The notes beneath the pieces are model-generated. The model saw only the letters and a list, made by a program, of their open reading frames with translations. It searched no databases and was not told the origin of the DNA. A program made the position numbers and the translations under genes. Positions 11,850-13,763 of a DNA stretch of 64,000 nt are shown here, in pieces. Source of the stretch: Acidobacteriota bacterium (GTDB lineage Bacteria > Acidobacteriota > Terriglobia > Terriglobales > Acidobacteriaceae); the NCBI GenBank assembly GCA_003225175.1, contig QIBA01000028.1, forward strand, positions 62,001-126,000, written 5' to 3'. How positions within the stretch are numbered: position 1 is the stretch's first letter; the number at the start of each line of letters is the position of its first letter.

Positions 11850-12497
11850 ATGCTGCTGCTCGCTCTCGATACTTCGGGAAGGCAAGGCGGGGTTACCCTG
11901 GCGCGCGGCGCAGGCGGGCAGGTCGAAATCATCGAATCGGCATCGATTCAAGGTGGGACATTTTCGGCAGAACTCGTTCCGCAGATCTCCGATATTTTGC
12001 GCCGGTACCAATTAACTCCCCAGCAGCTTCAAGGGTTGGTGGCCGTCACGGGCCCCGGTTCATTCACTGGCTTGCGCGTGGGGCTCACGGCCGTTAAGGC
12101 ATTGGCTGAGGCGTTAACAATTCCTATCGCTGCTGTGACTTCTTTGGAGTTGTTGCTTGAAGTGACAGGCATTGAAATGGGGGCGATGGCCGTGCTTGAT
12201 GCTGGGCGAGGTGAGCTCTACGTCGCAGTTTGGAACGGAACTCGCGAAGAGATGCTGCTGTCGTTGGACGAAGCTCTTGCCCTGGCGAGATCGCATAATC
12301 TGCGCGTGCTGGCTGCCGAGACGAACATCGCGGCGAAGTTTGACCAAGCAATATTAGCGACTTACTGCAGCACCGAGGTAGCAGCGAGGATTGGATATTC
12401 CAAACTGCTTGGTGGAGAAACAATCGATGTCCTCGTGCTGGATGCTAACTACATTCGCCGGTCGGAAGCTGAGTACATGCAAAAGATGAGGAAGTAA
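11850..12497 (+). CDS. tsaB: tRNA threonylcarbamoyladenosine biosynthesis protein TsaB
   Basis: A 215-aa protein of the ASKHA fold. The N-terminal LALDTSGRQGGVTL and GPGSFTGLRVG motifs are diagnostic of TsaB (YeaZ), the partner of TsaD in making t6A on ANN-reading tRNAs. The ATG at 11850 follows the mce stop (TGACATG), so it belongs to the same transcript. A longer frame back to 11724 only shadows mce. tsaB is commonly followed by rimI; here the rimI sequence follows but is joined to a transposase (12681-13763). Confidence 0.92.
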   Translation: MLLLALDTSGRQGGVTLARGAGGQVEIIESASIQGGTFSAELVPQISDILRRYQLTPQQLQGLVAVTGPGSFTGLRVGLTAVKALAEALTIPIAAVTSLELLLEVTGIEMGAMAVLDAGRGELYVAVWNGTREEMLLSLDEALALARSHNLRVLAAETNIAAKFDQAILATYCSTEVAARIGYSKLLGGETIDVLVLDANYIRRSEAEYMQKMRK

Positions 12498-12573
12498 ATG
12501 CTTCGTACTCCGAATCACAACCCACTCGCCTTAGTTCCGGGGCACAAGTTCGCCAGGTCAGTCTGCAAGGATC

Positions 12574-12619
12574 TTTGAAGGGGCACGGCTTCAGCGAAGC
12601 GAAGCCATACCCCTTCAAA
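12574..12619. repeat. REP-like hairpin upstream of the transposase
   Basis: TTTGAAGGGGCACGGCTTC (12574-12592) pairs with GAAGCCATACCCCTTCAAA (12601-12619) with two mismatches, around an 8-nt loop. Related fragments GGCACGGCT and TGCCCCTTCA recur inside the 3' part of the transposase frame at 13171-13206. Such hairpins flanking an IS200-like gene are typical of REP/RAYT modules. Confidence 0.75.
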
Positions 12620-12680
12620 ATCGATTCCTTTGAGCTTATCTTTGTTCCCGATTCTATTCAGTCTCCTGAGAGATCAGTTA

Positions 12681-13763
12681 ATGAAACCCACTCGCGAACC
12701 TTTCCCAGCCATGCCGACCACTTACTCGGTTGGTTCACAAACGTTCCAGCGACGGATGTACTTCCAGAATGAACGGTGGGCGCGGCTGTTTATCGAGACG
12801 CTGTATCACTATCGGCAAACAGGCATCTTCAAATTGCATGCGTTCGTCGTCATGCCTGAACACTTCCACATTCTGCTTACGCCTTCAACAACTCTCGAAC
12901 GAACAGTTCAATATCTAAAAGGGGGCTTTTCTCGAAAAGCGAGATTGAAATTTCATTGGAAATTCCCGATTTGGCAGAACAGTTTCACCGATCATCGAAT
13001 TCGGGATGCCGTTGATTGCGATAATCACATTCAGTACATCTATCTGAATCCGATTAGAAGAAAACTCTGTGGTGTGGCGTCAGAGTATCCGTACTCTTCC
13101 GCTCATTCCGGCTTTGAGCTCGACGAACCCCCGCAGCGGCTAAAGCCGGAGTGGGGGGCGAGTTCCTGCGGCACGGCTCTGCACCCCGAATGCTGTGCCC
13201 CTTCAGAATCGGAACAGCCGAATACAAAGCAAACAGGAGTTCAGAGTTCCGCTGTACGTGTCGGCAAGAGCCAAACTAACTCGCTTTGCGATACACGCTT
13301 CGATACCCTCGAAACCGTAAAGATCATTCCAGCGAAAGCATCCGCAATACCGTTCATCCTTTCAGTCCAGCGCGCCTGTCCTGCTGCTTCTCAGTGGAAG
13401 CCAACCGACTACACGGCGGCTATTGCCCAACCTGATCGTCTGGTCCTAATCGCCGAGAAGGACTCCAAAATTCTCGGCTTCGCGGTTGTTTATACTGGAA
13501 TTCCGGAATGGGAACTCGAAAATGTGGCTGTCGCTCCGGATTCGCGCAGGAGCGGAATCGGGCGCGCTCTGATGGCCGCGCTTATCAATCTAGCCCGAAA
13601 GGCTGGTGCAACCGAAATCCGCCAGGAGATTCGGATATCGAACACGGCTGCACAGAAGCTAGGGCTTTCGGTCGGTTTCATTCAGGAAGGTCGGCGGCCT
13701 GACTACTACCGCGATCGGGTGGAAGATGCCTTATTGTTCAAGTACTTACTTGGCCGGCAGTAA
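12681..13763 (+). CDS. REP-associated tyrosine transposase (Y1/HUH) fused in frame to RimI-type N-acetyltransferase
   Basis: One 360-aa frame encodes two known families. Residues 1-150 are an IS200-like RAYT transposase: HUH motif MPEHFH (His61, His63), WQNSFTDHRIRD, and QYIYLNPIRR with the probable catalytic Tyr119. Residues 150-212 are a linker read from REP-like DNA. Residues 213-358 are a GNAT domain of the RimI type: LENVAVAPDSRRSGIGRAL (acetyl-CoA binding) and the RimI hallmark RPDYY...EDAL. RimI acetylates the N-terminus of ribosomal protein S18. It sits directly after tsaB, where rimI normally lies, so the transposon probably landed at the rimI 5' end. Between about 13150 and the GNAT core there is no ATG, GTG or TTG in frame, so the acetyltransferase can only be made as a fusion unless an unusual start is used. 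Confidence 0.85.
   Translation: MKPTREPFPAMPTTYSVGSQTFQRRMYFQNERWARLFIETLYHYRQTGIFKLHAFVVMPEHFHILLTPSTTLERTVQYLKGGFSRKARLKFHWKFPIWQNSFTDHRIRDAVDCDNHIQYIYLNPIRRKLCGVASEYPYSSAHSGFELDEPPQRLKPEWGASSCGTALHPECCAPSESEQPNTKQTGVQSSAVRVGKSQTNSLCDTRFDTLETVKIIPAKASAIPFILSVQRACPAASQWKPTDYTAAIAQPDRLVLIAEKDSKILGFAVVYTGIPEWELENVAVAPDSRRSGIGRALMAALINLARKAGATEIRQEIRISNTAAQKLGLSVGFIQEGRRPDYYRDRVEDALLFKYLLGRQ
13171..13206. repeat. REP-like sequence within the fusion linker
   Basis: GGCACGGCT is followed 14 bp later by GCTGTGCCCCTTCAG, the same building blocks as the hairpin at 12574-12619. Just before it, CCCCGCAGCGGCT and AGCCGGAGTGGGG (about 13129-13157) form another imperfect palindrome. Both are translated as part of the transposase-RimI linker. 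Confidence 0.55.

Follow-up and report, generated by a model that had tools for sequence, protein, structure and literature searches.

The RAYT–RimI reading frame downstream of tsaB

The analysed window is a stretch of 64,000 nucleotides from the draft genome of an uncultured member of the Acidobacteriaceae (98.9% complete, 268 contigs), and the locus lies inside a contig of 162 kb. The following features were found, where G001 is the genome with the nearest RimI relative:

11850..12497, + strand: tsaB, encoding a subunit of the t6A complex (Pfam TsaD match; 78.6% amino-acid identity to tsaB of G001)
12574..12619, + strand: 5' REP palindrome, TTTGAAGGGGCACGGCTTC...GAAGCCATACCCCTTCAAA, with 19-nt arms that are 89% complementary
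12681..13130, + strand: core of a RAYT (REP-associated tyrosine transposase), beginning with ATG 12681 (NF047646; alignment to 4er8; conserved motifs)
13131..13208, + strand: REP-encoded RAYT tail and degenerate 3' REP, the right end of the element (likeness to the RAYT-less REP pairs L096 and L099)
13209..13316, + strand: linker, open in the RAYT frame, putatively host flank or former rimI leader (no repeat in the genome; flat codon-position GC)
13317..13319, + strand: GTA at the RimI start column (30 RimI proteins aligned, each with its start codon marked)
13320..13763, + strand: RimI-type GNAT, intact (TIGR01575; alignments to PDB 5isv, 2cnm and 9mto; whole-branch average dN/dS ~0.11 against G001)

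The stop-to-stop frame 12579-13763 on the + strand is open, with an ORF of 377 aa, and the RAYT and the RimI-type GNAT share one frame of 360 aa from ATG 12681 to TAA 13763. The RAYT model NF047646 matches residues 30-156 of the 377-aa ORF with 97.8 bits (cut-off 80). TIGR01575 (rimI) matches residues 244-369 with 88.8 bits over the whole frame, and the RimI part scored alone reaches 91.4 bits, both barely exceeding the cut-off of 86.4. Pfam matches in the fused frame are Y1_Tnp and Acetyltransf_1. The two domain matches are far beyond chance, whereas the fused frame alone is within chance. A single-sequence structure prediction of the 360-aa protein had a mean pLDDT of 32.5 and was disregarded. 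The original prediction of an in-frame joining of RAYT and RimI is thus confirmed, with both domain models above their cut-offs. It had also placed rimI downstream of tsaB, and this is correct: rimI comes after tsaB in the window, the same order is found in most relatives, and tsaB is the usual upstream neighbour in the family. The distance from tsaB to the RimI start column is ~820 nt, with the element in between. Directly after the tsaB stop there is an ATG with a good Shine-Dalgarno sequence (AGGAAG), which opens a 26-codon ORF at 12498-12578 ending in the 5' REP. It may be a remnant of the sequence that formerly surrounded the rimI start.

In-frame ATG codons within the RAYT are found at 12681, 12711, 12756 and 12852, among others. 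The last ATG, GTG or TTG of the frame within the RAYT is GTG 13074 and the next is GTG 13524, at about the midpoint of the GNAT domain; an in-frame codon scan found none between 13077 and 13521. The loss of the rimI start codon, as first proposed, therefore holds, and the proposed start-free stretch from about 13150 was conservative because the frame is start-free already from 13077. A CTG suggested as a start at 13180 does exist, at 13179, but it lies inside the 3' REP and is a poor candidate.

The REP-flanked element and the tsaB–rimI junction

The window RAYT has the Y1 HUH core, the HUH and Tyr motifs and two flanking inverted REPs. Alignment of relatives and coordinate mapping put the HUH motif HFH at 12861-12869, and Tyr 13035 in YIYLNP, with the NP motif adjacent, is the probable nucleophilic Tyr. 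The protein aligns to the TnpA-REP structure PDB 4er8 (E 4e-11). Since HFH and Tyr 13035 are kept, the RAYT may still be catalytic.

Further sites in the genome with partial copies of the 5' REP are C30:150188-150238 and 150347-150393, C32:164227-164258 and 164372-164404, and C38:46023. A search of the window with a REP consensus gave no match. Two genome sites (L096 and L099) are transposase-less REP pairs with the layout of the window element. Window 13131-13208 resembles ...CAGCGGCTGAAG... and GGCACGGCTCT...CCCTTCAAAA of these pairs, and their right REP, GGCACGGCTCT...CCCTTCAAAA, matches window ~13170-13208, where the window copy is degenerate. The REP pair and the REP-only copies support the insertion of a REP-flanked element between tsaB and rimI, and by comparison with these copies we place the element at ~12574-13208, with rimI outside it in its ancestral place. 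Capture of rimI within the transposon was rejected on this ground, as the right end at ~13208 is upstream of rimI; the original wording of gene capture was too strong. In relatives, the RAYT tails (..PPQRLKP...GTAEAVPFQ..) are REP-encoded and often run through the REP before a stop. The window RAYT tail also passes through the 3' REP, and no stop is met.

Among the nearest relatives of the window RAYT, most come from other genera and sit between carA and carB; the grouping of the window RAYT with these carA-carB RAYTs has weak support (80/75). In the window genome itself carA and carB are adjacent, with no insert. In many genera of the family (L035, L036, L049, L065 and L067-L075), RAYTs of this group occupy the carA-carB interval or lie immediately ahead of carB, a recurrent position for what is supposed to be a mobile element. 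In G151 (L073:2159-6028) a RAYT and carB share one frame of 1289 codons, and carB keeps its own ATG. A RAYT in G078 was listed with 1310 open codons, but in the DNA itself a stop codon separates the two genes.

The linker is 108 nt long, and a genome-wide repeat search found no copies of it elsewhere in the genome. Its codon-position GC is flat (0.54/0.49/0.49) compared with that of rimI (0.63/0.46/0.57). Shuffling of a 110-nt gap left a given frame open in 19% of cases, or in ~6% when the phase is also counted; an open, in-phase linker is therefore unusual, and selection is not required to explain it. The linker is probably flank that is open by chance in the RAYT frame. GTA 13317 aligns exactly where many relatives carry ATG, GTG or TTG, so that the start loss would be accounted for by a single base change, GTG to GTA for instance. 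No Shine-Dalgarno sequence was found ahead of 13317-13326, and a frame-1 TAA at 13318-13320 overlaps GTA 13317.

RimI starts are variable across this family and often lack an obvious Shine-Dalgarno sequence. In the congener G005, which is more distant, and in many other genera, the rimI start overlaps or closely follows the tsaB end. In G001 and G004 the rimI start is ~120 to 180 nt past tsaB, and a different REP-like repeat lies in the gap. The linker and the 5' flank mostly have no homology to the tsaB-rimI gaps of G001 and G004, the one weak match, in G004, being barely above shuffled sequences. The gaps of the two closest relatives (L005 and L006) carry the other REP-like repeat, GTAGAGACGCAGC...GCTGCGTCTCTAC in L006. 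In this genus, REPs seem to accumulate between tsaB and rimI. In G032, from another genus, rimI also has no ATG, GTG or TTG above its core (L032:1117-1953, reverse complement of the stored strand). An inserted ORF of ~115 aa separates tsaB from rimI there, and in the start column there is an ACG, which follows AAGGAG by 6 nt and the stop of the inserted ORF by one codon. Thus rimI genes without a canonical start persist elsewhere.

The RimI domain and a second GNAT

The nearest RimI relatives are those of G001 (78% identity) and G004 (72%). Between the window and G001 (NG86), rimI has a dN of 0.137 and a dS of 1.26, a ratio that is a whole-branch average and cannot show selection since the start loss; the values of tsaB are similar (dN 0.139, dS 1.33). 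Amino-acid and silent changes in rimI number 17:24 on the window branch and 8:12 on the G001 branch, which are alike. We found no stops, frameshifts or relaxed substitution in the GNAT domain. Decay of the domain, which had been named as a reason to doubt the prediction, was rejected on the intact frame and a dN/dS like that of tsaB.

Glu103 and Tyr115 are the catalytic residues of RimI, Tyr115 being the general acid (PMC3347575). In the window only one of this pair is present: the Glu103 equivalent is kept (GAG 13626), and the Tyr115 equivalent is replaced by Gly (GGG 13662). Tyr115 is absent (Gly or Ala) in 6/6 genomes of the genus (the window and L005-L009), whereas Tyr is present in 24/24 other aligned relatives. 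On this distribution we regard the Tyr115 loss as genus-wide and older than the insertion. By context and score we assign the window gene as the RimI orthologue, with uncertain activity. RimI function may already have been altered before the insertion, making the start loss more tolerable.

A second RimI-like GNAT is encoded at C57:90503-90901 (L080). It scores 77 bits, below the TIGR01575 cut-off, so the tsaB-linked rimI is the single gene of the genome above it; the equally good second rimI that would have spoken against the prediction was not found in this genome. The second GNAT keeps both catalytic residues and is conserved across the order. It is present in 20/21 genomes searched, most of which also have the tsaB-linked rimI, and is therefore an ancient paralogue and not a genome-specific replacement; a replacement rimI gained elsewhere was rejected on the same count. 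In these bacteria, true N-terminal acetylation may be the task of this second GNAT.

Source of RimI and comparison with known systems

The joined frame, the element, the absent start and the intact GNAT domain are direct observations, and the following course of events would account for them. In this lineage, a REP-flanked RAYT element would have entered the junction between tsaB and rimI. The RAYT C-terminus would be encoded by the 3' REP with no stop at the element end, as in many related genomes. The 108-nt flank would be open by chance and in phase with rimI, whose start is now GTA. Translation from ATG 12681 would then give a 360-aa read-through protein with RimI as its C-terminal domain, and this supply would suffice to keep the acetyltransferase domain intact. 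We infer that this protein is produced and acts as the principal source of RimI activity, and we put the probability that the read-through fusion is the main source of RimI at about 0.5. Read-through is favoured by the uninterrupted frame free of internal canonical starts, the completeness of both domains, the REP-flanked layout with its REP-only copies, the RAYT tails that run through REPs in relatives, the RimI dN/dS and GTA 13317 in the start column. In addition, RimI tolerates N-terminal fusion, as in the TsaB-RimI cases. The points against read-through are that the fusion was found in one genome only, that the linker has no coding signature and that the openness of the linker is not improbable by chance.

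The claim that the fusion is the sole form of RimI went too far, as RimI could still be translated separately, either from a weak start (GTA 13317, ATC 13323 or ATT 13326) or through reinitiation, for instance by ribosomes that terminate at the frame-1 TAA, and the fused frame would then be incidental. This is the main alternative, which we consider somewhat unlikely. The G032 gene, which uses or tolerates ACG, the variable family starts with frequently no obvious Shine-Dalgarno sequence and the G151 carB with its own ATG despite an in-frame RAYT all speak for it, but there is no Shine-Dalgarno sequence upstream of 13317-13326 and no stop separating RimI from the RAYT frame. GTA is also not known to be an established natural start codon. 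A silenced rimI, with insertion and start loss marking early gene death, is unlikely in our judgement. Such a loss could be borne if RimI is dispensable, as E. coli rimI mutants are viable and have no phenotype (PMC3347575), and the genome has the second GNAT with its two catalytic residues. RimI had also already lost Tyr115 in the whole genus. The absence of stops, frameshifts and relaxed substitution in the GNAT domain argues against silencing, as does the age of the second GNAT, which mostly occurs alongside the tsaB-linked gene. One wrong base (GTG to GTA) in a 268-contig draft would be enough to remove the start by assembly or consensus error, but the size of the contig, the completeness of the genome and the intact neighbouring frames make such an error very improbable.

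At the E-values used, no match spanning RAYT and RimI was found in 398 genomes of the family or in 399 genomes of the class, two overlapping samples. A GTDB contig scan for the fusion returned only the G004 rimI. The RAYT-RimI fusion is a feature of a single lineage in these data. With the architecture in one genome, the original suggestion of a domesticated fusion enzyme is therefore without comparative support. That a bifunctional RAYT-RimI is made and selected, with the acetyltransferase tethered to an ssDNA/REP-binding HUH domain and RimI expression dependent on the transposase, is quite improbable. The fusion looks like a one-off accident tolerated by the cell rather than a widespread new enzyme.

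If the read-through protein is translated, the locus would clearly exemplify how a mobile element can take control of translation initiation in a housekeeping gene. It would also show an origin of chimeras, in which REP-coded RAYT tails lacking stops enter downstream sequence, and the transposase would become hard to lose, which is one route to long-term vertical retention of RAYTs. If it is not translated, the locus is an ordinary insertion beside a dispensable gene.

The window element resembles a REPtron, a RAYT/TnpA-REP gene with flanking inverted REPs (PMC2817692, PMC6006769). Both have the Y1 HUH core with a Tyr beside NP, inverted REPs flank the window RAYT, and REP-only copies are found elsewhere in the genome. 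Unlike a REPtron, the window frame passes the 3' REP and continues 108 nt further into the host gene. Unusually long TnpA-Y1 proteins have been put aside as 'gene fusions or annotation errors' (PMC6006769), which is the sole mention of RAYT fusions in the literature examined. In these proteins, as in the window, the RAYT frame is lengthened by joining other sequence, but in the window it is known what the RAYT is joined to and where the element ends, and the joined gene has lost its own start. Fusions of rimI to tsaB have been reported in Bordetella and M. leprae (PMC4926160). There too RimI is joined to the product of the upstream gene, whereas in the window the partner is an inserted transposase and not a functional neighbour. 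Accidents of this kind are already known; the window fusion is a well-defined example, and its effect on a housekeeping gene is unusual.
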